The notes under the pieces were generated by a model. That model made no database searches. It saw only the letters and a list, made by a program, of their open reading frames with translations, and was not told where the DNA came from. Position numbers and translations under genes: made by a program. From the NCBI GenBank assembly GCA_949152475.1, contig OX424562.1, forward strand, positions 37,744,157 through 37,808,156: DNA of 64,000 bases. The letters run 5' to 3'. Shown one piece after another: positions 9,704 through 29,506 of the stretch (position 1 is its first letter; the number at the start of each line of letters is the position of its first letter). Source of the stretch: Terebella lapidaria (taxonomy: Eukaryota > Annelida > Polychaeta > Terebellida > Terebellidae).

Positions 9704-10337
9704 TCAGGTAGCAGAGCGTGGTTGGACGACTCCTGAACATACCTGTGGATATTTGAAGCCATTCCCTGCAGATAAGTGACTTTGCGAAACTCTTGTTGAC
9801 ATCTAACACAGTGACTGACACCAGTAATCGTGGCCATGAACACCAATCCACTGAAACTAGTGCCAAGAACACAAAAGAACAATGCCAGAATTAACATTGA
9901 AAAGGCCGAAAGTGTGCTGTACAGCTTGATACCAGCCTTCTGGCTATTGATTAGGTACTTATGTACTTGTCATATATCTGTTCCATGGGGTTTGTTTCGG
10001 ATTTCTAAAATATTTTCATAGGTTGTTGGGCAGTTGTATACTAGTTCCATCAGGTGTACAGTAGAAACAACTACATTCAACACACTGTCTGCCCCTGATG
10101 ACGCCAGTGTGTCTTTGGATAAACCATTTGGTCGGGCTTTGTTTCTATTGCAAAATGTTGTATTTTACGTTTGTTATTGGCATCATCAAAATCTACTGTA
10201 TTTGTGGTAATAGATTGATACCTACATTGATAGATGATGAAGCTCCATTTGGGGTCATCAGGAGAGCTCTGGGTGACCTCCATGAGCAGGCAGAGGAATA
10301 TGGAGCTTCATGCCAGGAGTACTAGCAGTACCTTGAA
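9704..10337 (+). other. BEL 5' leader and decayed gag N-terminus
   Basis: TCAGGTAGCAGAGCGTGG directly after the LTR resembles the primer binding site of BEL elements, with the first TGG altered; I did not assign the tRNA. A broken gag start seems to lie around 9836-10020 and 10220-10320, with in-frame stops. The rest of this stretch has no other ORF. Confidence 0.5.
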
Positions 10338-12539: not shown

Positions 12540-13483
12540 GTTCAGTCGTCACTGAAGTACGATGGTGAACGGTATGTCGTCTCTACTCCATGGAACGAAC
12601 AAAAAGAGGAACTCAAGAACAACTACAAAACAGCAGTCAGTCGACTACAGAACACAGAAAAAAACGGCTGCTGAGAGAACCCACACTGGGACAAGCATAT
12701 GACAGCATCACTAAGACATACACAAAACAGGGTACATTAAAAAGGTGGACACTGAGAGGACAGAACATGGAACATCCTGGTACCTGCCACACTTCCCTGT
12801 GGTCCGGCCTGATAAGGTGAGAATGGACTTTGATGGCGCTGCGAAGCACATGGGTATGGCCCTCAAAGACGCAGTGAGGGCAGGACCCAAACTACAGAAC
12901 GACCTCTTCAGTGTCCTAGTGAGATTCCGCCGCCACCCAGTCGCAGTGGTATGTGACATGTCAGAAAATGTATCTCCAGATTGGCCTCAACCCTGAGGAC
13001 CAGAGGTTTCACTGCTTCCTCTGGCGAGACCTCAACACGCAAAAAGATCCCGAGGTCTATGAATGGTGTAGAGTCGTGTTTGGCATCTCGTCCTCACCAT
13101 TCATTGCACAGTACATCACCCAGGAGCATGCAAGGAAGAACAGGGCCAAGTACCTGATAGCTGCTGAAACAGTACTTAAAAGTACTTACATGGATGACAG
13201 CATAGACTCGGTGAAGGACACACCCTCAGCCATCAAACTCTGCCAGGAGTTGACCACACTGTGGCATCTCACAGGCATGCACCCCAGAAAATGGCTTTCG
13301 AACAAACCTGAAGTGCTGAACACTGTACCTGTGGAAGACTTTGTCATTGAGGTGGACTTGGACAGTGCAGCCTTCCCACAGGTCAAGACACTCGGCATGC
13401 TCTGGTCAGCTAAACCAGATGTCTTCAGGTACCAAATCAACATTGATGTGGACACATCACCTGGACGAAACGAGGTTTCCTGA
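12540..13483 (+). pseudogene. BEL reverse transcriptase, frameshifted
   Basis: Motifs run in order: WYLPHFPVVRPDK, MDFDGAAK, RAGPKLQNDLFSVLVRFRR, VAVVCDMSE (first catalytic Asp). After a frame change come YLQIGLNPEDQRFHCFLWR, VFGISSSPFIAQY and STYMDDSIDS (YMDD catalytic box). The YMDD box and the order are diagnostic of BEL/Pao pol. The frame shifts near 12960, and a damaged stretch lies at 12600-12740. Confidence 0.88.
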
Positions 13484-14400
13484 AGAAGATAGCAACCCTA
13501 TTTGACCCCATTGGCTTACTCCAGCCTTGCACAATCAATGCAAAGATTCTACTCCAGGAAATGTGGCTGGCTGGGTGCGACTGGGACGAACCCTTACAAC
13601 ACCTACAGAGTCAGGCAGAGAGCTGGTTCCAGGAACTACAAGAACTGAACGACCTGAACATTCCTCGCTGCATGACTTAAGGAAGGAACATCAGCAAGCT
13701 TAGCTTGCACACATTCGTACATGCATCAGAAAAGGCTTACGGCGCAGCTGTGTACGTTCGATGCAAGTATCATGACAAGAGTGTGAGTTGTCTGATTGCC
13801 TCAAGAACTAAAGTGGTCTCTCTGTCGCCGTCAGCATCCCATGGTTAGAACTAGTGGCTGCAGTGATTGGATTCCGAATGACTGATACAGTGGCAGAAAC
13901 TCTAAACCTGGACATCTCCCAGCAGACGTTTTGGTCAGACAGCCTGGACGTCCTGCACTGGATCAGAGGACACAGTCGGAACTTCAAACCTTTTGTTGCC
14001 AATCAAGTCGGAGAAATTCAGACAAGGACCAGTCCTGAACAATGGTGACACATTCCGACACAAGAGAACCCCACAGACCTCCTGAGTCATGGCCTGAGAA
14101 CCCAAGAACTCCTCCAATCACAGAAATGGTGGAAAGGACCAGACGTCTTGAGCCAAGACCCCGAAAACTGGCCAGAGAACAAAATTGCTGACAGGAAGCT
14201 TGAGGCTATCGAAAGGAAGAAGCTCAAAACTGTCAGCACTTAGACCGTGTATTTGTAGCCCAGGATCCCTGCATTGATCCTCAGAAATACTCAAACTGGA
14301 CAAAGCTAGCCCGGGTCTGGGCCAGAGTGACACACTTTTTGGACAACTGTCAGCTTCCCAGAGATTTACTTAATCCGACAAGCCCAAAGAGTTCAGAAAT
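13484..14400 (+). pseudogene. BEL A17/RNase H region, with stops
   Basis: The reading continues with KKIATLFDPIGLLQP, the start of the Pao A17 region, then WLAGCDWDEPL. A TAA at about 13678 interrupts it. The RNase H-like part shows LSLHTFVHASEKAYGAAVYVR and, after another stop near 13846, [33 protein letters not shown] matches the usual N/HVP-NPADxxSRG region. Several stops make it a pseudogene. Confidence 0.8.
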
Positions 14401-15098
14401 GACATTCCTTCGCTCGAATATAGCAAGGACCTGCCAAAGAGATCCAGTCTACTTGCCCTGAAGCCGTTTCTGGATGAAGAAGGGTTGGTCCGTTCTGACG
14501 GCAGACTGACATCTTCAGTGACCATCCCATGGGAAATGTCCTTCCCTCTGGTCCTTCCAAAAGACCATCAAGTCATCCAAAAGACCATCAGACTCCTCAT
14601 CATGCACTACCATGCAAGATCATTTCATGCAGGAGCAAACCAGGCCCTCTCAATGATGTCGGCCAAGTACTGGGTAATATCAGGAAGGGAAACGATCAGG
14701 AAAGTCGAAAAATCCTGCGCAACATGCAAGAGAAAGAAGGCTGCTCCCGCACAGCAACTCATGGCCCCCCTTCCAAAGCTGAGAACACAGGTGACAGTCC
14801 GAGCGTTTGCCAACACTTCCGTCGACTTTGGAGGGCCATTCCTTGTGAAGCAGGGCAGGGGGAAGACACAAGCAAAACGATATCTCTGCCTCTTCACATG
14901 TCTGGCGACGAGGGCCGTTCATTTGGAAGTGGCGTTTGGGTTGGACACCGACTCATTCCTGAACGCCTTCTACCGAATGTCCTCAAGGAGTTGGGGGCAC
15001 TGGACAAGACCAATCATCAAGGGGTGACCTGGCACTTCAACCCCCCTCTAGCGCCTCACTTCAACGGCGTTCACGAGGCGATGATCAGAAGTGCAAGA
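14401..15098 (+). pseudogene. BEL integrase, N-terminal part, second catalytic Asp deleted
   Basis: The 14485-15027 frame carries the integrase zinc motif (H in YHARSFHAG, then SCATCKRKK) and the core start SVDFGGPF (first Asp), followed by CLFTCLATRAVHLEV. The expected SDNGTNF-type block with the second catalytic Asp is absent: after NAFYRM the sequence jumps to a GALDK-type string. It then continues in another frame (WHFNPPLAPHFNGVHEAMIR, third catalytic Glu). The Penelope insertion begins right after this at about 15099. Confidence 0.85.
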
Positions 15099-15333
15099 GA
15101 CGTGGAATCAATACCCAGTATTAAGTATTCCGAGCAAACAAAACAGGGTCCGTTATCCAATCTCATAGTCCGAGGACAGAAAGTCATATCAGGCATACGA
15201 AGTGAGAGAAAACAAAAATGACAGGGAAACTCATGAACCCCCGAAAATGGCCATTAGGAGGTGAAATCAGGTGTTCCAGAGAGAGTGAGCATTTCCTGCC
15301 CCAGTAGTGGCACCCGTCATGAATTCCCCAAAA

Positions 15334-16563
15334 TTAACATGAAAATAGATCTAGTTGCATGGCAGACATGGATTTGCTGTATTCATCCACCAGCTCATGA
15401 TGACGTCCATAGAATTTCTTAAACGCAGCTATAAGTCTTGGTAAAACATATCCTTGTCGCAGCAGTTTAGAGACTAGCTGGGCACTTCGATAGACAAAGT
15501 CCTCATATTTGCATCTAGCTCTGGAAAAGCGTATAAGTTGAGAAACAAACACACCATATGCCGGTGACATAGGAATGTTGCTGCTCAGAAAAGGGAAATT
15601 GACTATGGAAAAATTGAAATCATCACATTTGTCATTTAATCTAGTTGACAGGTTAGAATCATTATCAATCTCCAACCTCAGGTCTAGATAGTTGGAAAAA
15701 GTATCTTTAATTTCAAGTTCCTTAGGATATATGACATCCAAATAGTCACCAAACTTGGGATTATTTAGCGACAATACATCATCTATGTATCGGAAAGTGA
15801 AATTAAAATTACTTGTTAGTTTCTTAGAACCTCCTCGTTGTAAATGTTGGATAAAATCTGATTCATATGAGTATAAAAACAGGTCTGCCAATAATGGTGC
15901 ACAGTTTGTACCCATGGGAATACCAATAGTTTGTTGAAATATTCGACCACCAAATTCCACAAAAATATTATCAATCAGAAAATTAACCATATTTACCACA
16001 TCTATTTCAGTATATTTGTATGGGGCATCAGAGTCGCCTTTAACAAAATAAGCGGTATTATATTTAACTACAATATAGTGGTACCGACGTTGTCCCTTTT
16101 TAGAGAAAAATGTATTATTGATTAGTTTTTTGAGCTGAGACTTCAGTTCAGAATGAGGTATAGTTGTATACAAAGTGGAGAAATCAAATGATAGACGTTA
16201 CTTTTGAAAGTGTTTGAGCATGTAGATTTTCCAATAAAGTTTTGGAATTTTTTAATATCCACATTTGGTTTATACCACTTCTAGAATAGATGGTTTCAGA
16301 GTACTTTTGGAGACCCTGTTTAATTTTAGACAATATAACATTTAATATTTTAGAAAGGGCTTTGGTAGAACATGACGCTGAACCTGAAATATATCTTTGT
16401 TTGTGTGGATTTTTGTGCAACTTTGGGATCCAATATAAGTTTGGTAGATTAGAATCTTTACATGAGGTAGTAATACCAAACGAATGCAATACAGACACAT
16501 GATTTGATAAGATATCCTGTTTGGGCACAGTAATGGCTTGGTATGTACTATTGGAATTAGTAT
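15334..16563 (-). pseudogene. Penelope-like RT, C-terminal two thirds, one frameshift
   Basis: The - strand reads LPNLYWIPKLHKNPHKQR and SGSASCSTKALSKIL, then shifts frame near 16188. It continues MYTTIPHSELKSQL, IGIPMGTNCAPLLADLFLYS (primer-binding/palm) and FTFRYIDDVLSLNNP (YIDD catalytic box). These are classic Penelope RT motifs, related to telomerase. The ORF ends DLFSC with no GIY-YIG endonuclease after the RT. The known alternatives are an endonuclease-less lineage or one with an N-terminal GIY-YIG, which would be lost by truncation here. A single indel breaks an otherwise good frame. Confidence 0.88.
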
Positions 16564-16885
16564 TGTAACGGTTTTGGGGCGTACCCAAAAGTTTCCCCTA
16601 GGTAATTCTATTAGTGTTTTGTTATATTATGGTTAAATAACCGTTTATTAAAATGTATATATGTTTAAAGGTTCATTTGGTTCCGTATTGGTAATGTTTA
16701 AAAGGTTTTCCGTCTCGGAACTTGGTATATTTGTGATGTTGGTAAAGCCGGAGACGGAGCCGGAGACGGAGACGGAACCGGAGACGGAGTCGGAACAATG
16801 GAGTACAAAAACGTAATGACGTTATTTCCGGAAGGTCATGTGATCAGCCTCGTTTTCGGTTTAAAAGGTGACGTGTCAGCCACTG

Positions 16886-16990
16886 ATTGGTTCTAGAGTG
16901 TTTTTATAAATCCGGAAAATATCAGTGTTTTGGCGGACTATGACGTCACAATAGGTTGATCACGTGACGTGGGTCTCAGGTCTATAAAAG
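16886..16990 (+). promoter_or_regulatory. LTR promoter: reverse CCAAT, CRE, CACGTG, TATA
   Basis: ATTGG (reverse CCAAT) lies at 16886-16890, a full CRE palindrome TGACGTCA at 16941-16948, an E-box CACGTG at 16961-16966 and TATAAAAG at 16983-16990. Transcription would start about 25-30 bp past the TATA. The same sites occur in the 3' LTR about 10,721 bp downstream. Sites are seen directly; activity is inferred. Confidence 0.75.
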
Positions 16991-17132
16991 CCCCCGCTTC
17001 ACAGCGGACGGCGGAGTTGGTGTCCTGACGTCGACCTGTGCAGACCCCTTCTCCCATAGCAGAGTACTCTCTTGTTCCGGATAGAGTCATCCAGATGATC
17101 GCAGATTATGTCTTCCGACTGGGCACTTGGAA

Positions 17133-17199
17133 AATAAACATGAAAACTTCAACCGAGTTGTTTTTCCGTGTTCGTTAGGGAACTGGAATTTATAATAAA
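17133..17199 (+). terminator. LTR poly(A) signals
   Basis: AATAAA at 17133-17138 and 17194-17199, both about 150-210 bp after the TATA, so they could mark the R-U5 region. The 3' LTR has equivalents. Confidence 0.5.
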
Positions 17200-17947
17200 G
17201 TTAGTTCACCGGAAAAGAAAGTAATACGGAGAAAAGGGAGGTAAGACCACAGTCGGTTAAGACCAAGTTGTAACGACGTCTTAGGGTGATCCAAGAACCC
17301 AGATCACCAAGGAAGGAGACGGAGACGGAGGTAGAATTCAACGGAGCAACTACGGAGGCGGTACCGGACGGAGCAATTGCAGAGACGGAACGACGAAGCA
17401 GTTGCAGAGGCGGTACCGGACGACGGAGTAGCAGAGGCAGTACCTGACGGAGCAGTTGCGGTAACCGGAAGTGAGAACACTCCCGGGATTCTCCATTTCA
17501 GGTGCAGTCGCAGGTTGCGGCGAGGCAGAGCCAACCGGAGCAGTTTGCAGTGAGGCGGAGCCTGGCAGAGCGGTTGCAGTATTCGGAAACGGCAACGTTC
17601 CCGGATTCTCCATTCCAGGTGCAGTCGCAGTTGCAGTAAGGGGGAAAACGACGGATCTGTTGCAGTAAAGCGGTATCCCGACGGAGCAGTTGCAGTACCC
17701 GGAGACGGAAACGCCTCCGGATTCTTACTTTACAGGTGCAGTTGCAGATTAGCAGTCGGACAACGGTTAAGAGGTCCATTCCAGACCACGCTACCAACCT
17801 TCAGAGACTTCTAGCCGGAGTGCAACCGTACAGCAGTAGCAGTTTCCCGGAGTTTTACCGTTTCAGCTCCGGTTAAATAACAACTCACCCACCTCCCTAG
17901 AAAACCGGTTTATCAAGACGTCACAGAAGGGTGAAGAACCCGTTACA

Positions 17948-18783
17948 ACTTTTTGGTGGCAGCGGTGGGATCATCTGCAGTATGACTACTAGACGGGGCA
18001 AATTGGAGGAACAGCAGCTGAAGACAGCCGTGTCGGACACGGAGCAGCCTGTAGGAGCAGTAGGAGCTGAGCCGTTGCAGATGCCGGTTGCGGAAAAGGA
18101 AGCAGTTCGTCCTGCAGAGCGAAAGCTGATGCAGCCGGAAATGCAGAAAGCAGTTGCAGAAGAGCCCCTTCGGGTTCCTCAAGGAGTTAGCGGAGGCGGA
18201 AATTAACTTTCCGGACCAGGCTGGCGATCGGGAACCGGATGCGGAGCCGGAAGGCGGAGAGAATTTAGTCGACAACCTGACCAGATTATTGGCGACCCAA
18301 ATGGAGGTGTTTCAGCAGCACCTGGCAGTAACCGGAAAGCAGCAGCAGGCAGAAGCAGTACAACAACTTTTTGGTGGCAGCGGTGGGATCATCTGCAGTA
18401 TGACTACTAGACGGGGCAAATTGGAGGAACAGCAGCTGAAGACAGCCGTGTCGGACACGGAGCAGCCTGTAGGAGCAGTAGGAGCTGAGCCGTTGCAGAT
18501 GCCGGTTGCGGAAAAGGAAGCAGTTCGTCCTGCAGAGCGAAAGCTGATGCAGCCGGAAATGCAGAAAGCAGTTGCAGAAGAGCCCCTTCGGGTTCCTCAA
18601 GGAGTTAGCGGAGGCGGAAATTAACTTTCCGGACCAGGCTGGCGATCGGGAACCGGATGCGGAGCCGGAAGGCGGAGAGAATTTAGTCGACAACCTGACC
18701 AGATTATTGGCGACCCAAATGGAGGTGTTTCAGCAGCACCTGGCAGTAACCGGAAAGCAGCAGCAGGCAGAAGCAGTACAACA
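17948..18783 (+). repeat. 418-bp tandem duplication of leader and gag start
   Basis: Positions 17948-18365 and 18366-18783 are near-perfect copies (period 418, read at the PBS, the ATG at 17982/18400 and the AGCAGTACAACAAC end). Each copy contains the PBS and the first codons MTTRRGKLEEQQLK. Since 418 is not a multiple of 3, the frame changes between copies. Confidence 0.92.
17954..17971 (+). promoter_or_regulatory. Primer binding site (tRNA-Leu type), copy 1
   Basis: TGGTGGCAGCGGTGGGAT lies 6 bp after the LTR end. It complements the last 18 bases (with CCA) of a typical metazoan tRNA-Leu. A second identical site lies at 18372-18389 because of the 418-bp duplication. Confidence 0.8.
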
Positions 18784-19636
18784 ACCAGCACCAAGGGCAG
18801 GAGTAGCCAGATTAATGACATACTACGGAACTGATCCGTGGCCGGAGTATGAGGCTCACCTCCTTGAATACGCTCGGTACTACCGTTGGACAGCAGAGGA
18901 AAAGGCGCTGAACTTATGTGTCAGTTTGAGGGGTAACGCCCGCAGCATACTACTGGATTTGTCCGCGGAGCAGAGACGCAGCTTTGATACGGTTGTGGCG
19001 GCATTAAAACAGCAGTTTTGCCCGGGAGAGAAAACATTTGTTTTCCAGGCGGAATTGCAGACACGGAAATTGCAGCTGGAGGAGGAGCTGTCCGAGCTGG
19101 CCAGAGACATACGGAGCAAGACGCGGCTAGCTTACCCGAAAGCGGATCCGGCAACAACAGAAGTGCTCATGAAGATGCATTTCTGCAACAGTCTGACTAA
19201 CCGAGATATGCGGTTGTCGGTATTGAAAAGCCACCCGGAAACGCTGTTGCAGGCCCTGGCTTTCGCTACCGAGTATGAGAGTATTATGAAGACGGACAAC
19301 AGTAGATCAGCGGAGCGACACCGGACGAGGCAGCTGAACACGGAGCCGGAGTGGAGCCAGCAGGTGAACGAATTGCGGAAGCAAGCCGAGCAGACTCAGC
19401 AGCGGTTGGCGGATCTGATGACTCAGGTCAAGGAAGCGGTTAGCCGGCAGCAGCAGCAGCGCAGTTCCCGAGTGGATTTAGAATGCTTCAACTGTGGCCG
19501 AAAAGGGCATTTTGCCCGAGACTGCAGGCAGCCGAAGCAGCAGCAGCAACGGCGTCAACCACAACAGCAGCAGTCGCCGCGACAACAGCAGCAGCAGCCG
19601 CCGCAGCAGCAGCAACAACTGCAGCAGCCACGATAG
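18400..19636 (+). CDS. gypsy-2 gag
   Basis: Gag packages element RNA. A start at 18400 (MTTRRGK) runs in one frame to 18624. The main gag frame is open from 18572 to 19636, so a +1 shift near 18550-18620 is needed; the first duplicated copy has the same shift. The main frame contains a retrotransposon-gag core (WPEYEAHLLEYARYY, LCVSLRGNARSILLDL, LKQQFCPGEK, MHFCNSLTNRDMR). A coiled stretch follows, then one zinc knuckle CFNCGRKGHFARDC, then a long Gln/Pro-rich tail. The shift may be a true indel or a programmed frameshift; an indel is more likely. Confidence 0.82.
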
Positions 19637-19764
19637 CAGCAGCAGCAGCCGGAAAACTAGAGCGGGTCGCGGAAAAGGGGAAATCCGGGACCCGGAAGAG
19701 AGGACACCCCCACAACCGGCAGGTGGTTCACGGACCCGGTCCCAGGGGCGAGGTGGGCATGTGA
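19637..19764 (+). other. Gag-pol junction lacking a protease
   Basis: Between the Gln-rich gag tail and the pol linker there are only about 130 bp. They have no DTG/DSG active-site motif in any frame, whereas gypsy elements normally carry about 100 residues of protease here. This is best explained by deletion. Confidence 0.65.
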
Positions 19765-22002
19765 GTGAGAGCAGAGAGTGTCCGTGAAGCAGAAGGAGTA
19801 CTAGAAATGCCACAGGAGCCTACTGAGAAAAGACCTTGGCTGATAGGGAGAACTTTATCCCGGATAAAGCAAGGAACAGTCCCGGTTCGAGTGATCAATG
19901 TGATGGCGGAGCCGGTAATCATCAAGAAAGGAGCGCAGTTGGCGACAATGACCACCTTAGCAGCCGGTTGCAGTGTTGTGCCGTTGGCGGAGCGGAGCAG
20001 GAAGGTGCAGATTTCCACGGAGTCGGAGGCCGGGCGGAATTGGAGCGGGTACGAGAAGCTGCGGCAGTTAGCAGAGCAGACCCAGGCAGCAGTGCCGAGT
20101 CATTTCCGCGAGAGAGTAACCGACCTCCTATTTCGGAATAAGCCGACCTTCAGTAATGATGCCGGAGAACTGGGGCAGACCAACGAGGTACAACATCAGA
20201 TAAACACGGGCAGTCATCGGCCGATTAAGCAGCCGACCAGACGAATTCCGCCGGACAAGAGAGAGCTGGTGAGCAGTCTAATTCAGGAGATGAAAGACAA
20301 GAACGTCATTGAAGAAAGTAGCAGTCCTTGGGCTTCTCCGATTGTTCTGGTGAAGAAGAAGGATGGGACCACCCGGTTCTGTGTCGATTACCGGCGGTTA
20401 AATGCAGTCACGGAGAAAGATGCTTATCCGTTGCCGAGAATAGATGACACCATAGCAGCCTGTGCAGACGCCAAGTGGTTCTCCACTCTCGACCTGACCA
20501 GTGGATACTGGCAGGTCGGGATGGATGAAGACGCCCGGAAAAAGTCGGCCTTCTGTGTTCCTGGTGGCCTTTACCAGTTCAAAGTCATGAGTTTCGGCTT
20601 GTGCAATGCTCCGGGTACGTTCGAGCGGTTGATGGAGAAGGTGTTAGGCGGACTGTCCTGGAAGACCTGCCTCATATATCTGGACGACATCATAGTCTAC
20701 AGCAAGACCCTGGAGGATCACACCCGTGATCTTCAGGAGGTTTTCAACAAGCTGAGAGAGGCAGACCTAAAAGTCAAACCGTCAAAATGCAAGTTCTTCC
20801 AGCCGGAGGTGTCTTTCCTAGGTCACATTGTCGGCAGAGACGGTATCCGTACCGACCCGGCAAAAACGGAGGCAGTACGGAAGTGGCGGACACCCACCAA
20901 CCTGACGGAGCTGCGCAGTTTTCTGGGGCTATGCTCCTATTACCGGAAGTTCGTGCCGAAGTTCTCCGAGATTGCAGCGCCGCTGAATCACTTGACGGAA
21001 AAAGGGGTGCAGTTCCGGTGGCAGACGGAGCAAGAGCAGGCATTTGCAGAGCTGAAGAACCGCCTAGTATCGGCACCGATACTCGGGTACCCAAGGGAGC
21101 AAGGCCGATATATCCTGGACACGGACGCCAGTGACACCGGGTTGGGAGCAGTACTATCACAGAAGCAGGGCAACCAGGAGAGGGTGATAACCTACTTGAG
21201 CCGCAGTCTAACCAAAGAAGAACGGAGATACTGTGTCACCTGGAAGGAGCTCCTGGCGGTTGTGTTTGCGGTACAGAAGAATAAGCAGTACTTGCTGGGA
21301 CGACACTTCCTTCTTCGCACGGATCATGGCAGTCTTACCTGGCTGATGAATTTCAAGGAGCCCCAGGGGCAGGTAGCCCGGTGGATTGAGCTCCTGAGTG
21401 AGTTTCATTTCGACATCGAACATCGTCCGGGGCAAATCCATAATAACGCGGATGCCTTGTCCAGATCCCCGTGCAGCCAATGCGGAAAAATCGACTGGAA
21501 ACAGGCCAAGATAGACGCCTGGAACTACGGAGAAAGGATCCGGCAGACACGAAGTGAAGAAACTCCTCAGCCCAAGCCAAGGAAGGGGGGACGCTGGAAG
21601 CGGTCACGGAGATCGGACGGAGAAGCAGAACTGACGGAGAAAGCAGCGTCCCGGATGCTGGTTGCGGTTGCGGTGACGGAGAAAGCAGCGTCCCGGAAGC
21701 CGGTTGCGGTGACGGAGGAAGCAGCGTCCCGGAAGCCGGTTGCGGTTGCGGTGACGGAGAAGGCAGTTCCAGGAAAAGTGGATGCGGTTGCAGAGCAGAT
21801 TAGACTGGCGGAAAATGCGGACCAGGATACTGTGCTGGGGCAGAAATATCGACCAGATGATTTGCGGAGAATGCAGCAAGCAGAACCTTGGTACCCACTG
21901 GTGACGTCGCTGATCGACGGGAGCGGTACAGCTGGCAGTGCAGACTTTTCCAGCATGAGCAGCGAGGAGAAAGTGCTCCAGGGATGCGGAAGACCTTGCT
22001 GA
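19765..22002 (+). CDS. gypsy-2 pol: reverse transcriptase and RNase H
   Basis: A 745-residue ORF copies element RNA to DNA. After a linker it shows INTGSHRPIKQPTRRIPP, ASPIVLVKKKDGTTRFCVDY, LDLTSGYWQVGMDE (first Asp) and SFGLCNAPGTFERLM. CLIYLDDIIVYS is the catalytic YLDD box, and SFLGLCSYYRKFVPKFSE follows. RNase H follows with YILDTDASDTGLGAVLSQ, TYLSRSLTKEERRY, LRTDHGSLTWLM and FHFDIEHRPGQIHNNADALS. Past RNase H come tandem 12-14-residue repeats (TEKAASRKPVAV-type, four units). The frame ends at 22002 and integrase continues in another frame. The RT and RNase H look intact. Confidence 0.92.
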   Translation: MRAESVREAEGVLEMPQEPTEKRPWLIGRTLSRIKQGTVPVRVINVMAEPVIIKKGAQLATMTTLAAGCSVVPLAERSRKVQISTESEAGRNWSGYEKLRQLAEQTQAAVPSHFRERVTDLLFRNKPTFSNDAGELGQTNEVQHQINTGSHRPIKQPTRRIPPDKRELVSSLIQEMKDKNVIEESSSPWASPIVLVKKKDGTTRFCVDYRRLNAVTEKDAYPLPRIDDTIAACADAKWFSTLDLTSGYWQVGMDEDARKKSAFCVPGGLYQFKVMSFGLCNAPGTFERLMEKVLGGLSWKTCLIYLDDIIVYSKTLEDHTRDLQEVFNKLREADLKVKPSKCKFFQPEVSFLGHIVGRDGIRTDPAKTEAVRKWRTPTNLTELRSFLGLCSYYRKFVPKFSEIAAPLNHLTEKGVQFRWQTEQEQAFAELKNRLVSAPILGYPREQGRYILDTDASDTGLGAVLSQKQGNQERVITYLSRSLTKEERRYCVTWKELLAVVFAVQKNKQYLLGRHFLLRTDHGSLTWLMNFKEPQGQVARWIELLSEFHFDIEHRPGQIHNNADALSRSPCSQCGKIDWKQAKIDAWNYGERIRQTRSEETPQPKPRKGGRWKRSRRSDGEAELTEKAASRMLVAVAVTEKAASRKPVAVTEEAASRKPVAVAVTEKAVPGKVDAVAEQIRLAENADQDTVLGQKYRPDDLRRMQQAEPWYPLVTSLIDGSGTAGSADFSSMSSEEKVLQGCGRPC

Positions 22003-22054
22003 AAGTCGACGGCGTAGTCACCGGAAATGGAAAACGGCAGAAGGAACCAGTCGA

Positions 22055-23254
22055 ATGCAGTTAATAACCCCGAAGGAGCTGAGACAGGAGATTTTCCGTC
22101 TGGCCCATCAGAGCCGGACGGGAGGACACCTCGGAAGCAGAAGGATGGCGGCTAGCATTCGGAGGCGGTATTTCTGGCCGGCTATGATGCGGGACATAAA
22201 GCAGTGGGTGCTGAGCTGTGACGAATGTGCGTCAAGAAGTATGCAGAACTTGAAACGATCTCCGATGCAGAAATACCGGGTTGGAGCGCCCATGGAGAGG
22301 GTGGCTATGGACGTGATGGGTCCATTACCTAAATCCACCAGGGGGAACCAGTACATCTTAGTAATCGGTGATTACTTCACCAAGTGGGTAGAGGCCTACC
22401 CGATGCCGAATCAGGAAGCGGTGACGGTTGCGGACATATTCATCAACCAGTTTGCAGCGCGGTACGGCATCCCGATGGAGATCCACACCGACCAAGGCAG
22501 AAATTTCGAGTCCGACTTGCTGAGAAATGTGTGCAGAATCCTGGGGATTCACAAGACACGGACAACCGCTTTCCGACCTCAGTCGGACGGTTTCATTGAG
22601 AGATTCAACCGGATGCTGCAGCAGATCCTGAGCCTGTTCGTAAGCGAGCGGCAGACCAACTGGGATCAGCTAGTTCCGATGGTGATGGCAGCTTACTGGA
22701 GTACCCCGCAGGAGACAACCGGGCAGAGTCCCAATTTGCTGATGCTGGGCAGAGAAGTCAACACTCCGGTAGAGTTACTGATTGGCAGGCCTCCGGGCGA
22801 ATCGACAGCAGAAGTAACAGAGTATGGCAGTCAGCTCCGGGAGCGACTAGAAGCAGTATACAAGGCGGTTCGAGCGAAATCTGGCAGAGAGATGGAACGG
22901 CAGAAGAAGCTGTACGACCGGAGCAAGGTCGACAATCAGTTCCAGCCAGGAGACCGAGTGTGGATGGTGGTCAAAACACGGAAGAAGGGCAAGGCACCCA
23001 AGTTGCAGAGGAAGTGGAGCGGTCCAAAGCTAGTGCTGAGCAGATTTACCGACGTGACCTACGAGATTGCAGAGAGTGAAACTCGGCAGAAGGTGGTTCA
23101 CTTCGATTTGCTGAAACCGTATAATGGTGTCAAGCATCCGAGATGGATGAAGCAGAGAATGGCGGATTCCTGGAGGCAGACGGAGCCGCCGAAGCAGAGT
23201 AGTGTTCCGGAGTCGGAACAGACGGTCTCTGAGTCGGATACGGACTCGGAGTAA
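22055..23254 (+). CDS. gypsy-2 integrase
   Basis: The frame is open from about 21985; the first ATG is at 22055. It shows the zinc motif (H in LAHQSRTGGHLG, then SCDECASRS). All three catalytic residues are in place: Asp in VAMDVMGPLP, Asp in EIHTDQGRNFES, Glu in SDGFIERFNRML. The C-terminal part has QFQPGDRVWM and KWSGPKLVLSRF, a GPY/F-type domain used in targeting or multimer formation. The tail is acidic (SESDTDSE). A +1 frame change separates it from RT/RNase H at about 21960-22002. By motif this integrase could be active. Confidence 0.9.
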   Translation: MQLITPKELRQEIFRLAHQSRTGGHLGSRRMAASIRRRYFWPAMMRDIKQWVLSCDECASRSMQNLKRSPMQKYRVGAPMERVAMDVMGPLPKSTRGNQYILVIGDYFTKWVEAYPMPNQEAVTVADIFINQFAARYGIPMEIHTDQGRNFESDLLRNVCRILGIHKTRTTAFRPQSDGFIERFNRMLQQILSLFVSERQTNWDQLVPMVMAAYWSTPQETTGQSPNLLMLGREVNTPVELLIGRPPGESTAEVTEYGSQLRERLEAVYKAVRAKSGREMERQKKLYDRSKVDNQFQPGDRVWMVVKTRKKGKAPKLQRKWSGPKLVLSRFTDVTYEIAESETRQKVVHFDLLKPYNGVKHPRWMKQRMADSWRQTEPPKQSSVPESEQTVSESDTDSE

Positions 23255-24023
23255 AGCCGCAGAGGACGAAGAAATATGGGAAGACGGAGTGAGCTGTAGA
23301 GCAGGAGAAGGAGATAGCTGAGACCCTGGTAAAACGTTGAGTTCCGGCAGAGAGCGATCGCAAGAAGTTGGAACCGTGAGCAAGTGCTGGTTCCGGAAGC
23401 AGGGCGGAGAAAGGAAGCAGAGCGGAAAGCGGTGCAGAGACCGGATAGAGACATCCTAGAGGTTCTGACTGGGTTGAGCGCATAGTCAACCAGTCCAGGG
23501 TAGCGGCCAGGGGTCCAGAAGAACCTGGGTTAGCGGTCTAGTATCTCCAGAGAAGCAGCTACACGTCTTCCGTATTCGGAGAATTAAGACGGAAAAGTTT
23601 TCCGGCTGTAGACATCCAACCGGAGTTTCCACTTAGCAGAGACAGTAAACCGGCTGCAGATCGACAGAAGCGGTGAAACATCATTCCAGATAGGAAGGGC
23701 CCTCCTTCTGGACAAGAATGTATGCAGTTTCCAGTGTCAACAAGCAGTAATACCAGTGAGCAGATATGCGATTGATGAAGCAGTACAGATGGCGGAAACG
23801 CCCAACTTGCAGTCTAGATGTTCGTCTGGCAGGCAGATTCAACTGGCTGAGACTCTATTCAACCCTCCTGATGGCAGAGATACTTCAAAATTGCAGATAC
23901 TTCGCTCGGAGAAGCAGTTGAAAGGGAGCCGGAAAAACCCGGAGAAGCCGGTTGAGCCGGAGACGGACACCTCTCGGTTAACGGTTGAGTTTTTGCATAA
24001 TTGTGACATCACTCCTGAGGCAG
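23255..24023 (+). other. Post-integrase spacer of gypsy-2
   Basis: About 770 bp with GCAG/CGGA-rich composition like the rest of the element. A short ORF at 23756-24055 has no known motif. No env-like signal peptide or transmembrane segment was seen. Confidence 0.5.
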
Positions 24024-24073
24024 CCAATCAGCGTGGAGCTTTTCCAGTCACGTGAGCAGAAAGGGTATAAAAG
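24024..24073 (+). promoter_or_regulatory. Internal promoter-like module 1 of gypsy-2
   Basis: CCAAT at 24024-24028, CACGTG at 24049-24054 and TATAAAAG at 24066-24073. Spacings are 25 bp from CCAAT to E-box and 17 bp from E-box to TATA (start to start). The LTR promoter uses the same three site types. An ORF with zinc fingers begins 258 bp downstream. Promoter activity is inferred. Confidence 0.6.
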
Positions 24074-24323
24074 GGCCTTGAAATCGGGCTCTGAGAGCAG
24101 TTGAAGAGCAGACCTCGAGCTGTGCACATCGCTGTTAAAGTTTGGCGGAATCGAATCAAGTCCAGTATTTTCCGGCTGCGGCAGATTTTGCAGTGAAAAA
24201 CGACTAAGTGTTTCCCGGAAGACCAGCAGTCCGGAGAAGCGGTGCAGCAGAAATGGTGCAGCAGAAGCGGTGCAGTAGAAGCGGTGCAGTAGATAGACAA
24301 CTTCAGTTTCCCGGCTTTCCGGA

Positions 24324-25241
24324 ATGGCCTACTCGGCGTTCCTTGGAAGACAAGATCGCGGCCGGAGCAGAGATTGGGCAAGCCCTCAGCCACTGGAGTA
24401 TAGCCGGCTGTGTAAGCGGTGTGACCGGATGTTCGAGAGTGAGACGGACAGGAGACGGCATGTGTGCCCAACCCAGAGGTATCATTGCTGTTTGTGTGCC
24501 TTCTACGGCAACCGAGCGAACGACCTTAGGCGGCATCTCCGGGAGATGCATGGTTGGAAGTACCCTTCCGGGAACCGTCCTCCTCAGGACGAAGCAACCC
24601 TCAGCCGTGTGGGAACCTTCGATTCGGCCTGGCGGGGAACAGCAACGCAGTCTCGGTGGAAGCGGTTCCGGAAATACTGCACACAGTCTCCTAGGGAGAA
24701 ACCAGTTCCGGAGACTTATGCGGACCAGCTTCCGTTCGGACCTGACTGGGATGCCGGAGCAGCCGCCCCCATCGGACAACCGGAGCGGTTAGATTTACCG
24801 GAATGGGCCAAGCAGAGGAAGACCAAGCAGAGGATTAGGAGGCGGAAATCCGTGCCAGGGAATACCGGCCTCCATCTCCCATTTCAGCGGCAGAGACTTC
24901 GGAGCCGGAGACGGATGAGTCGGAGTATGTTACGGCAGAGGAGGAATCCTGGACGGAAGCGGAGGCAGTGTGGCAGTAGTGGAGGCAGATGGCAGTGTGG
25001 CAGTAGACGGAGGCGGTTGGCAGTTTGGCGGAGACGGAAGAAGCAGTGGCAGTTAGCAGCAACAACACGGGGGAAAAAAAAAAAAAAAAAAAAATTATTT
25101 ATCCAAGAAGACCACCAGGAGGAGTTGCAGTTTGCTGAGCAGCCAATCATCAAGCAGATAAGTCAGTCACGTGACTTCCAGAGACTATCAAAAGGGGCAG
25201 ATAGCTGTTACCGGATGCAAAAGGCAGTTTGCTGTAGCTGA
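24324..25241 (+). CDS. gypsy-2 accessory ORF A (C2H2 zinc finger)
   Basis: A 305-codon ORF after the internal TATA. The N-terminal third has a degenerate finger (CKRCDRMFESETDRRRHVC, ending H-x-C) and a regular C2H2 finger (CCLCAFYGNRANDLRRHLRE with a final MH; C-x2-C-x12-H-x4-H). The rest is basic and low in complexity. A 21-A run (25074-25094) encodes Lys in this frame and makes the reading after it uncertain. A second frame across 24835-25000 reads an acidic stretch (SPISAAETSEPETDESEY), so a frameshift may already precede the A-run. The product may bind nucleic acid. No homologue is recognised. Confidence 0.6.
   Translation: MAYSAFLGRQDRGRSRDWASPQPLEYSRLCKRCDRMFESETDRRRHVCPTQRYHCCLCAFYGNRANDLRRHLREMHGWKYPSGNRPPQDEATLSRVGTFDSAWRGTATQSRWKRFRKYCTQSPREKPVPETYADQLPFGPDWDAGAAAPIGQPERLDLPEWAKQRKTKQRIRRRKSVPGNTGLHLPFQRQRLRSRRRMSRSMLRQRRNPGRKRRQCGSSGGRWQCGSRRRRLAVWRRRKKQWQLAATTRGKKKKKKKLFIQEDHQEELQFAEQPIIKQISQSRDFQRLSKGADSCYRMQKAVCCS
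25074..25094 (+). repeat. 21-base A run inside accessory ORF A
   Basis: An uninterrupted run of 21 A. It could be a slippage site, or the remains of a poly(A) tail from a captured transcript. Confidence 0.9.
25143..25194 (+). promoter_or_regulatory. Internal promoter-like module 2 of gypsy-2
   Basis: CCAAT at 25143-25147, CACGTG at 25168-25173 and TATCAAAAG at 25186-25194. Spacing is 25 bp, then 18 bp, almost the same as module 1. The TATA is imperfect. The next ATG in a zinc-finger frame lies at 25272. Confidence 0.5.
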
Positions 25242-25271
25242 GTCAACATCGACCCAAAGCAGAGAACCAGG

Positions 25272-25469
25272 ATGCCGAAAGTAAAGACAACACCCCGCAA
25301 GCCCCGCCCTCACCGGTGTGGAGACTGCAACCTAGAGTTCAAGAGCAAGCACATGTTGCTCCGGCATGTCACGGAGCAGCACACGAGTGAAGTCACCGTC
25401 TTCGCCTGTCCGCAGTGTGACCATTGGAGCAGACGGAAAGAGGGGACACAGAAGCATCTGCAGTCCTGA
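25272..25469 (+). CDS. gypsy-2 accessory ORF B, short C2H2 zinc-finger ORF
   Basis: From MPKVKTTPRKPRPHR it carries one full finger (CGDCNLEFKSKHMLLRHVTE with QH; C-x2-C-x12-H-x4-H). A second finger starts CPQCDHWSRRKEGTQKH, but a TGA at 25467-25469 falls exactly before its last His (the next codon is CAC, His). The next ORF continues in the same frame, so this stop probably splits one longer protein, unless it is read through. Confidence 0.6.
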   Translation: MPKVKTTPRKPRPHRCGDCNLEFKSKHMLLRHVTEQHTSEVTVFACPQCDHWSRRKEGTQKHLQS

Positions 25470-25475
25470 CACGCA

Positions 25476-27104
25476 ATGGACGCGAACCCGATTCGACTAA
25501 GGGTTGGCAGAGAGCAGTTTGAGGAGAAAAGCCTCCGGTCCAAGATGACCCCACGGAAAAGCAAGAAACCGGTAACACGGCTTGACCAGTTGTCGGATAC
25601 GGAGTCGGAGTCGGAGTCGGGAGGTTCGGTTTCGTCCCGGACCCGGTACCGTTCCGGTACCCAGTCGGTGGCCACACTAGCAGCCGACGTTTCGTCCACG
25701 GAGGCGGAGAGCAGTTCGGAAGAAGAAGCGGAGCTGAAAATTATGGCAAGTGAAGACGAGTTGCAAGAACCGGGAGACCCGAAGCCGGTTAAGCCGCCGG
25801 TGACCCGAAGTTCCTCCCGGAACACCTCCCGGAAAAACAGCCCGGACCCATCTCGAGGTACCGGAGTAGATCGAGACCGCGGAAAGAAGCGGAGTCGCAG
25901 CCGTTCGCCGGAGAAATCCGGCCGTCATCAACGCCGGGAATATAGGAAGGAGAGCCCGGAGCGCGCCAAGGACCGAGGCGGAGAACGTGGCCGAGAGGAG
26001 AAACGACACACCCCACCCAAGTCTTCAGGAGGCAGCGTCAAGGGAAAAGGCAAGGCGGTGTATGACTACAAGTTCCGGCTGCTGGAGGAAGGTTCCAGCG
26101 GAGCAGCGGCAGAAGTTGGAGTGGCGGACATTGCGGAAATGCAGAGCAGAGACGATGAGGAAGACAGTTTCCGGAGCCCACCTCTGAGAACGACTAGCAG
26201 TGGCAGAGCAGTGAGCAGCGTGATTGTCCGGCCCGGAGGTGGAGCAGAAAGCAGATCCAGCGGCCGAGACGATAGCAGAGCATATAGCAGAGCAGATAGC
26301 AGAGCAGATAGCCGAGCGGACAGCAGACCCATTGGCAGATCCGGAGGCAGACCGGAGACCAAAGCGGAAGGCGGAACCCGGAGCAGAGCTGTCAGTGAGA
26401 CGGAGACCCGAGGATCCACGGAGAGAACTTTACCGGCAACCATTCAAGCAGTAGCCGGAAGCAGAACCAGTTCAGCGGCTAGGGATGACGGAATGGAGTC
26501 TTCCACGTCTGACCGAAGCCATGCGGACGTGCTGAGAGCCCGGAGGAGTATCCTGGTAGATCAAGCCAGAGCTACACCCGGAATCCTGTCTCCGGTGGAA
26601 ACCCGGCCTCGACAGTCTTCCAGTGAGCGGTCCGGAAGGAGCCAAGTCCGAGCACCAACCCAGAGTCCACCTTACACATTCTACCCGTTTGGCGGTCCTT
26701 CAACTCAACCGTGTCCGTCCCACTGTTTCCCGGTGAATATTGGAGGAGGGAGTGCATCCGTCTTTGCACCTGCAGTCCCGGAGCATGCCAGATACTATGC
26801 AGTACGTTGGGGACCGGAGCAGATTGGTCCATCCGGGACGAACGCCTCAGGAATGGGTTCTACGTGCCACCCCAGTGGAGTCTACATGATCCCGATCTTC
26901 TTCCGGTTGATGCCAGAGGAACAAGCTTCGGACGACCGTTGGTACCACAGACCATTCCACCTCGTCCGCCGTCGGGGAGCAGTTCGCGCCGTGATACTGG
27001 TGGGCAGTAGTCGTCGCAAGTCGCCGCAAGTCGTCGCAAGTCAAGTCGGCGCAAGGAGAAGAAAGAAGAACCGTTTCCCGGATTCTAGTATAATTAAGAG
27101 TTAA
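25476..27104 (+). CDS. gypsy-2 accessory ORF C, Ser/Arg-rich
   Basis: A 542-codon ORF in frame with ORF B. It is hydrophilic, with alternating Ser/Glu and Ser/Arg tracts (SDTESESESGG, GKKRSRSRSPEKSGR), a tandem RADSR repeat near residues 270-285 and a Lys/Arg-rich C-terminus. A more ordered stretch (PFGGPSTQPCPSHCFPVNI, then YYAVRWGP) lies near residues 410-450. RS-rich tracts are typical of nuclear RNA-binding or splicing-associated proteins, but no RNA-binding domain is seen. There are no transmembrane segments, so it is not env. The function is unknown. Confidence 0.6.
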   Translation: MDANPIRLRVGREQFEEKSLRSKMTPRKSKKPVTRLDQLSDTESESESGGSVSSRTRYRSGTQSVATLAADVSSTEAESSSEEEAELKIMASEDELQEPGDPKPVKPPVTRSSSRNTSRKNSPDPSRGTGVDRDRGKKRSRSRSPEKSGRHQRREYRKESPERAKDRGGERGREEKRHTPPKSSGGSVKGKGKAVYDYKFRLLEEGSSGAAAEVGVADIAEMQSRDDEEDSFRSPPLRTTSSGRAVSSVIVRPGGGAESRSSGRDDSRAYSRADSRADSRADSRPIGRSGGRPETKAEGGTRSRAVSETETRGSTERTLPATIQAVAGSRTSSAARDDGMESSTSDRSHADVLRARRSILVDQARATPGILSPVETRPRQSSSERSGRSQVRAPTQSPPYTFYPFGGPSTQPCPSHCFPVNIGGGSASVFAPAVPEHARYYAVRWGPEQIGPSGTNASGMGSTCHPSGVYMIPIFFRLMPEEQASDDRWYHRPFHLVRRRGAVRAVILVGSSRRKSPQVVASQVGARRRKKNRFPDSSIIKS

Positions 27105-27271
27105 AAAATGGGAAACGGAACAAGCAAGATATCCGGGTACAGTGACGGTAAACTAGTTAAGAGATACCAGTACTCGGATCACGAAAACAGTTGTGTTTGA
27201 TTTTACGGACAGTTTAACGGTTGACAATTTGTATATATGTGATATTGATCTGTTCGGGACGAACAGAGTCT

Positions 27272-27284
27272 AAGGAAGGGGGAG
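27272..27284 (+). promoter_or_regulatory. Polypurine tract of gypsy-2
   Basis: AAGGAAGGGGGAG abuts the 3' LTR, as needed to prime plus-strand synthesis. Confidence 0.8.
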
Positions 27285-28668
27285 TGTAACGGTTTTGGGG
27301 CGTACCCAAAAGTTTCCCCTAGGTAATTCTATTAGTGTTTTGTGATATTATGGTTAAATAACCGTTTATTAAAATGTATATGTGTTTAAAGGTTCATTCG
27401 GTTCCGTATTGGTAATGTTTAAAAGGTTTTCCGTCTCGGAACTTGGTATATTTGTGATGTTGGTAAAGCCGGAGACGGAGCCGGAGACGGAGACGGAACC
27501 GGAGACGGAGTCGGAACAATGGAGTACAAAAACGTAATGACGTTATTTCCGGAAGGTCATGTGATCAGCCTCGTTTTCGGTTTAAAAGGTGACGTGTCAG
27601 CCACTGATTGGTTCTAGAGTGTTTTTAGAAATCCGGAAAATATCAGTGTTTTGGCGGACTATGACGTCACAATAGGTTGATCACGTGACGTGGGTCTCAG
27701 GTCTATAAAAGCCCCCGCTTCACAGCGGACGGCGGAGTTGGTGTCCTGACGTCGACCTGTGCAGACCCCTTCTCCCATAGCAGAGGACTCTCTTGTTCCG
27801 GATAGAGTCATCCAGATGATCGCAGATTATGTCTTCCGACTGGGCACTTGGAAAATAAACATGAAAACTTCAACCGAGTTGTTTTTCCGTGTTCGTTAGG
27901 GAACTGGAATTTATAATAAAGTTAGTTCACCGGAAAAGAAAGTAATACGGAGAAAAGGGAGGTAAGACCACAGTCGGTTAAGACCAAGTTGTAACGACGT
28001 CTTAGGGTGATCCAAGAACCCAGATCACCAAGGAAGGAGACGGAGACGGAGGTGGAATTCAACGGAGCAACTACGGAGGCGGTACCGGACGGAGCAATTG
28101 CAGAGACGGAACGACGAAGCAGTTGCAGAGGCGGTACCGGACGACGGAGTAGCAGAGGCAGTACCTGACGGAGCGGTTGCGGTAACCGGAAGTGAGAACA
28201 CTCCCGGGATTCTCCATTTCAGGTGCAGTCGCAGGTTGCGGTGAGGCAGAGCCAACCGGAGCAGTTTGCAGTGAGGCGGAGCCTGGCAGAGCGGTTGCAG
28301 TATTCGGAAACGGCAACGTTCCCGGACTCTCCATTCCAGGTGCAGTCGCAGTTGCAGTAAGGGGGAAAACGACGGAGCTGTTGCAGTAAAGCGGTATCCC
28401 GACAGAGCAGTTGCAGTACCCGGAGACGGAAACGCCTACGGATTCTTACTTTACAGGTGCAGTTGCAGATTAGCAGTCGGACAACGGTTAAGAGGTCCAT
28501 TCCAGACCACGCTACCAACCTTCAGAGACTTCTAGCCGGAGTGCAACCGTACAGCAGTAGCAGTTTCCCGGAGTTTTACCGTTTCAGCTCCGGTTAAATA
28601 ACAACTCGCCCACCTCCCTAGAAAACCGGTTTATCAAGACGTCACAGAAGGGTGAAGAACCCGTTACA
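27285..28668 (+). repeat. 3' LTR of gypsy-2 (1384 bp)
   Basis: Same length and ends as the 5' LTR. About 13 single-base differences were counted by eye across the pair. It is followed by the TSD GTAT. Confidence 0.97.
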
Positions 28669-28672
28669 GTAT

Positions 28673-29006
28673 TGTTGGCAATACCCAGTTCGTCAAACAG
28701 ACACTGTATATAGTATGCTTTACAAACAAAAACAACATTATTAGAAGCTTTATCTGCAGGGACAATGACGAACCTTTCTTGAATTTTCAACAAACTATTA
28801 GTAACCACAGGATCATTGAAGACAGAGCTATATTTAGTACTAACTGACTTTGACGAAACATTAATGCGTTTGTTTACCAATGACCTAATCTGTTTGACCC
28901 ATTCTGACAGAGAATCAGTTTCTGCCTTTTCTCGCTTTGTCCATTTTCTGGCATGCTCCTCAACTGCATCCATGATTAACTTGAAATTGTATCCCAAAGC
29001 GTGCAA
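28673..29006 (-). pseudogene. Penelope-like element, N-terminal fragment
   Basis: The - strand reads HALGYNFKLIMDAVEEHARK, WVKQIRSLVNKRI and RFVIVPADKASNNVVFVCK, ending near DELGIANN where gypsy-2 begins. This is the region before the RT fingers in Penelope proteins. The frame is open to the BEL junction at about 29000, without a start Met, which fits 5' truncation. Joined conceptually with 16563 and below, it forms one protein interrupted only by gypsy-2. Confidence 0.8.
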
Positions 29007-29506
29007 TCAACGCCATCCTCGGAACAGCAGAAGTAACAGATGAGGAGCTACTCACTGCAGTGGTCGGGGCCGAGGACCTTATCAACTCCCGACCAGTTAC
29101 GTACCAGTCAGCCGATGCAGTGGATCCAATACCCCTGACTCCAAACCACTTCATCTTCGGCCAGATGGACGGGAAATTCGCACCACCAGTCACCGGCGAG
29201 GTCGCTTTCAACCCCCGCAAGCAATGGCGATGTGTCCAAGAACTCGTGCGCCAGTTCTGGAAACGTTGGCTACGTGAATGGATCCCTGGACTAAGGATAG
29301 AGTGGCGACAGAACAAGGAAAGCTTGAAGGTCGGCGATGTTGTCCTTCTGTTATCGTCCGACATGCCTCGAGGACACTGGCCGTTGGGACACATTACAAA
29401 AGTCTATCCTGGAGAGGACGGACTTGTGAGAGTTGTCGATGTGCAAGTCAAAGACAAAATCGTCAGATGTCCGATAGTGAAGCTGTGTCCACTGGAACTT
29501 GACTGA
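29001..29506 (+). pseudogene. BEL integrase C-terminus and DUF5641
   Basis: The BEL frame resumes after the Penelope insertion: AINAILGTAEVTDEEL, GAEDLINSRPVTYQSAD, PLTPNHFIFGQ. The DUF5641 region follows (FWKRWLREWIPGL, LKVGDVVLLLSSDMPRGHWP, GHITKVYPGEDGLVRVVDV) and ends in a stop at 29506. This stretch has no internal stop, so part of the element has stayed in better shape than its gag and RT. Confidence 0.9.

Follow-up and report, generated by a model that had tools for sequence, protein, structure and literature searches.

We analyzed a 64,000-nucleotide (nt) stretch of the Terebella lapidaria genome (contig OX424562.1, positions 37,744,157 to 37,808,156 of the forward strand; hereafter the window), and all coordinates given here are positions within it. 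The window contains a Ty3/Gypsy long terminal repeat (LTR) retrotransposon (16564-28668, 12.1 kb). The 4 kb past its integrase are best read as an accessory coding region of the element's own, unrelated to env, and to judge from the sequence they probably hold two damaged genes instead of three open reading frames (ORFs). We tentatively propose, without calling it probable, that both are zinc-finger genes on internal promoters and that the product of gene 1 would transactivate the element, as Tas does in foamy viruses, by a route that evolved independently.

From the integrase stop (23254) to the 3′ LTR (27285) there are 4,030 bp, which contain ORF1 (24324-25241), ORF2 (25272-25469), and ORF3 (25476-27104) in a common frame, exactly where a first-pass annotation of this DNA had placed them. 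ORF3 (544 codons stop to stop) and ORF1 (314) exceed the lengths expected from composition, because shuffles of the region so rarely or never match them. Among 1000 order-1 and 1000 order-2 Markov shuffles, 544 open codons were found in none (maxima 327 and 374), and 314 were reached in 1/1000 and 5/1000, respectively. A Kyte-Doolittle scan of plus-strand stop-to-stop ORFs of at least 40 amino acids (aa) in 23255-27284 detected no transmembrane-like segment (no 19-residue window above 1.38; no dedicated signal-peptide program was run). Thus env is not supported, in agreement with the earlier annotation. The 4,030-bp region occurs only once in the window.

The second finger of ORF1 has canonical cysteine and histidine spacing (C55, C58, H71, H76). 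A protein search with ORF1 found one relative among 1108 candidates, P0001 (177 aa, encoded on a contig of 868 bp), with 89% identity across 88 aa. P0001 aligns without gaps to 24546-24806 in the ORF1 frame (78/87 identical, about 90%), and its last 48 residues match 24815-24970 in another frame (40/53 aligned columns; expect value (E) 5e-18 against the window). The 42 residues in its middle have no counterpart in the window copy. Because the tail of P0001 matches the other frame, we conclude that ORF1 is in the wrong frame beyond about 24806 and that its arginine-rich basic tail (30 arginines in 144 residues) is an artifact. The tail of P0001 is strongly acidic, with 29 acidic versus 6 basic residues in 90. 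Gene 1 looks like a protein with zinc fingers and an acidic, activator-like tail and not like an arginine/serine (RS) protein; an acidic tail under the frameshift shifts its likely role from RNA processing towards transcription. No relatives of P0001, the integrase, or the reverse transcriptase (RT) piece were found among viral contigs, and none of ORF1 up to 24809 among prokaryote genome contigs.

Finger 1 of ORF2 also has canonical spacing (codons 25317, 25326, 25365, and 25380). Its finger 2 has codons at 25407, 25416, and 25455, and the next histidine codon (25470) lies at the same distance as in finger 1, just past the stop at 25467. Since this stop falls inside the second finger and ORF3 starts at 25476 in the same frame, ORF2 and ORF3 are probably one gene that is broken in the window copy, with programmed readthrough at the junction as a possible alternative. 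ORF3 contains 84 serines and 73 arginines in 542 residues, including one RSRSRSP stretch. Its RS/SR dipeptides number 30/541, compared with 22.6 expected from serine and arginine content (1.3x). The previous description of a long, RS-rich ORF thus stands for length, which exceeds what composition gives, and fits loosely for RS-richness. ORF3 may alternatively end in frame 2, which is open at 26627-27007 and has a stop just ahead of a tandem repeat starting at 27009.

Codon usage was also used as a frame test, with a built-in stop penalty that favors any open frame. Frame 0 was top in 19/20 windows starting at 24305-25730, including the stretch that P0001 shows to be out of frame, and in just 5/14 windows starting at 25805-26780. 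This test was dropped as evidence for the frame of ORF3, as it also favors frame 0 over a stretch known to be out of frame. The ORF1 and ORF2 fingers are 24% identical to each other (49 positions, E 0.043), which is ordinary for such fingers, and the idea that they share an ancestor was set aside. Single-sequence structure models had low mean predicted local distance difference test scores (42.9 and 61.0).

Each of the two genes is preceded by a promoter-like module composed of a CCAAT box, a CACGTG box, and a TATA-like box (Table 1). The TATA-like box of module 1 lies 258 bp from the ORF1 ATG, as the first-pass annotation had reported; the twin upstream of ORF2 had been missed. A spacing of 25 bases from CCAAT to CACGTG is common to both modules, and CACGTG and the TATA-like box are 17 and 18 bases apart. 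The modules share the 11-base blocks GCAGCCAATCA and CAGTCACGTGA around the boxes without a mismatch, and the intervening bases agree at 5/14 positions. One module occurred in 0/3000 composition-matched shuffles and paired 10-mers on one diagonal in 0/500, and no further matches to the module pattern are present on either strand of the window. The LTR has box types as in the modules, with CACGTG and TATAAAAG 22 bases apart plus an inverted CCAATCAG. We considered whether module 1 derives from an old LTR (a 32-nt similarity between 23978 and 27214, 78%) and dropped the idea (BLAST E 0.44). A run of about 20 A (25072-25091) occurs just upstream of module 2.

In the proposed mechanism, each gene would be transcribed from a separate RNA polymerase II-type module. 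CCAAT and CACGTG-type boxes are targets of NF-Y and USF-type host factors, and host factors of this kind would start the internal promoters. The gene 1 product, with its C2H2 fingers and acidic tail, may then bind element DNA and activate the internal promoters and the LTR, and gene 2 would encode a two-finger protein with a long serine/arginine-rich tail. We infer transcription from the modules, DNA binding, and activation. Two zinc-finger genes each behind a module, with a DNA-binding, activator-like gene 1 product, suggest self-transactivation, a circuit like that of foamy-virus Tas that would have been arrived at independently. A more specific version predicts an acidic LTR transactivator and a serine/arginine-rich RNA partner on two polymerase II promoters, giving an env-less retrotransposon early and late phases independently of foamy viruses; we consider it doubtful in this full form.

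Tas combines DNA-binding and acidic activation domains and acts on an internal promoter first and on the LTR later, according to the available text of PMC3798896. Like foamy viruses (Spumaretrovirinae), the element would have an accessory regulatory gene near its 3′ end, behind an internal promoter, with DNA-binding and acidic parts (PMC3798896, in the text available). The resemblance to Tas is in layout only. The foamy-virus internal promoter sits inside env, which was not detected in the element, and the element has two modules where foamy viruses have one; the accessible part of PMC3798896 says nothing of zinc fingers in Tas, in contrast to the C2H2 fingers predicted here. Some bdelloid rotifer LTR retrotransposons also have non-env ORFs (ORF3) beside gag and pol. 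Unlike those of the element, they are of GDSL, DEDDy, coiled-coil, transmembrane, and env types, and the main text does not contain the word "zinc" (PMC5408684, as far as available). Cer1 of C. elegans, also an LTR retrotransposon, has an additional nuclear regulator, CERV, that controls Cer1 expression. It differs in that CERV comes from a spliced five-exon mRNA, acts in RNA export, and has a possible C4-type finger and no C2H2 finger (available portion of PMC10309623). DrFV-1 of zebrafish and Tat-clade or fungal Gypsy elements similarly have additional ORFs of unknown origin, for which the accessible sections of PMC2774666 do not mention a zinc-finger accessory gene or an internal promoter.

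Several observations weigh against two zinc-finger genes on internal promoters. The analysis of the element concerns a single copy within the window. The C2H2 matches (ORF2, PF13894 at 22.9 bits and PF00096 at 22.1; ORF1, PF13909 at 17.5) are all below the Pfam curated cut-offs, but the canonical spacing of ORF1 finger 2 and ORF2 finger 1 bears out the earlier claim that two of the ORFs hold C2H2 fingers. P0001 starts at the end of finger 2, and fingers and acidic tail were not found side by side in one intact protein. The first-pass annotation had suggested searching the ORFs against protein databases; this produced P0001 for ORF1 and no relative for whole ORF3 at E <=0.01 (scoring covered the 7994 candidates with the most words in common with it) or for its first 215 residues (1145 candidates). 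The box motif was picked after inspection of the sequence, the 27/36 identity between modules was equalled in 1/20 shuffles, and the TATA box of module 2 is imperfect (TATCAAAAG). Both ORFs have an upstream ATG that follows the module (24253 and 25215), and that at 24253 opens a 179-aa frame overlapping ORF1.

These upstream ATGs would fit real accessory genes that are expressed from the LTR promoter through splicing or reinitiation, with the modules incidental or acting as enhancers. Bdelloid LTR elements reportedly express their extra ORFs from spliced messages (PMC5408684, available text), and the spliced mRNA of Cer1 CERV (PMC10309623, likewise in the available text) is a further precedent. 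Against this, crude splice-site scans on this T-poor DNA found no strong acceptor consensus in 23255-24324, no acceptor with 10/13 pyrimidines in 22582-24887, and just one donor scoring 8/9 in the whole element, and equally spaced paired modules are unexpected by chance. We regard expression from the LTR as rather unlikely.

A role in RNA processing or export is another option for gene 2, or perhaps for the region as a whole, and the serine and arginine content of ORF3, with its RSRSRSP stretch, is consistent with this. Cer1, with CERV, is an example of a Gypsy-type element that encodes a protein for RNA export (PMC10309623, in the portion available). The RS/SR dipeptides of ORF3 are, however, just 1.3x the composition expectation, no Pfam RNA-binding family matches ORF3 at E <=1, and the tail of gene 1 is acidic and not RS, all of which make such a role quite improbable. 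The first-pass annotation had proposed that the element encodes its own transcription or RNA-processing regulators; non-env accessory coding DNA with a relative of ORF1 elsewhere agrees with this, and the picture changes to probably two genes in place of three ORFs, the first with an acidic tail. There is only a slim chance that the region was captured from a host gene, or is passenger DNA, and is decaying without function for the element. Both accessory genes are broken in the window copy, as decay would predict, but damage also affects gag and pol of this copy, P0001 keeps 87 residues ungapped at 90% identity, and the region resembles gag-pol in GC (guanine plus cytosine) content and in G-over-C and A-over-T skew.

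The element is a member of Ty3/Gypsy, with paired LTRs, a target duplication, and the domain order RT, RNase H, integrase (the Gypsy order, from Pfam). Its LTRs are identical at 1371/1384 positions without gaps. They have TG...CA ends, and both are flanked by GTAT, a short target duplication. The insertion is young, as the LTRs differ at just 13/1384 positions. The integrase matches Ty3 chains and foamy-virus chains in the PDB. A test for chromovirus membership, which calls for a chromodomain at the integrase C-terminus, was negative, with no chromodomain among the Pfam families listed at E <=1. On the hydropathy scan described above, the element was likewise negative as an env-bearing Gypsy of the errantivirus type and as a foamy virus, whose env gene would hold the internal promoter. 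A diverged 116-bp tandem repeat (28167-28434) is present in the downstream LTR half.

This copy has disruptions in gag and pol as well as in the two accessory genes. An exact 418-nt tandem duplication (17945-18785) spans the junction of LTR and internal sequence to the start of gag, which it upsets; it is due either to a reverse-transcription jump or to an assembly artifact. There is a frame break upstream of the integrase, and no Pfam protease family matches the gag or pol pieces (the scan covered 18548-19636 and 19765-22002). As the copy is broken, the element would depend on working copies elsewhere.

Table 1. Features of the Gypsy element and its accessory region (window positions).
Feature	Position	Strand	Remarks
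5′ LTR	16564..17947	+	Starts TGTAACGG, ends CCGTTACA; GTAT directly upstream
Putative primer-binding site	17954..17972	+	6 bases past LTR; read from sequence; primer presumably tRNA-Leu
gag piece	18548..19636	+	CCHC zinc knuckle
pol piece	19765..22002	+	RT and RNase H (Pfam)
Integrase	21959..23254	+	Frame differs from RT/RNase H frame
Module 1	24024..24073	+	CCAAT 24024, CACGTG 24049, TATAAAAG 24066
Gene 1, in-frame part	24324..24806	+	Degenerate C2H2 finger, canonical C2H2 finger, then conserved stretch
Remainder of ORF1	24807..25241	+	Judged out of frame, at least to 24970, by P0001 comparison
Gene 1, acidic tail	24815..24979	+	Frame 2; stop at 24836, end at 24977; preceded by 42-residue gap relative to P0001
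Module 2 (upstream of ORF2)	25143..25194	+	CCAAT 25143, CACGTG 25168, TATCAAAAG 25186
ORF2, probable start of gene 2	25272..25469	+	Full C2H2 finger, then second finger cut by stop 25467
ORF3, probable rest of gene 2	25476..27104	+	Serine/arginine-rich; frame of last ~100 codons uncertain
Polypurine tract	27272..27284	+	Read from sequence
3′ LTR	27285..28668	+	GTAT directly downstream
3′ LTR boxes			Inverted CCAATCAG 27604, CACGTG 27682, TATAAAAG 27704

The surrounding DNA contains nested insertions (12923-16197 and 28584-29503) of elements that we take to be BEL/Pao and Penelope. BEL/Pao-like pol pieces (RT 12923-13480, H2C2 14374-15024, DUF5641 28985-29503) appear to be split by a Penelope-like RT (15337-16197, minus strand), itself apparently split by the Gypsy element. 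Further downstream are two similar ORFs of the DXD-motif glycosyltransferase family PF04488 (34564-35715 and 45462-46622), with DNA 86% identical over a 300-nt stretch. The RT piece of the Gypsy element matches one contig among prokaryote genome contigs (JAJZEL010000139.1, positions 10001-10225; RT 59% identical), which ends inside RT. In this contig ORF2 and ORF3 have no match better than E 0.28, and no match to ORF1 was found at E <=1. The contig is filed in a proteobacterial metagenome-assembled genome and is perhaps eukaryotic contamination.

A literature search that left most subscription papers and all repeat databases outside its range returned, in the texts available, no Gypsy element that has a zinc-finger activator of its own placed behind internal promoters. 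The T. lapidaria element may, on the strength of its predicted genes and modules, be a mobile element that switches itself on. If this is true, phased regulation would have arisen more than once among LTR elements, and the element would supply its host with C2H2 factors and promoters in mobile form.

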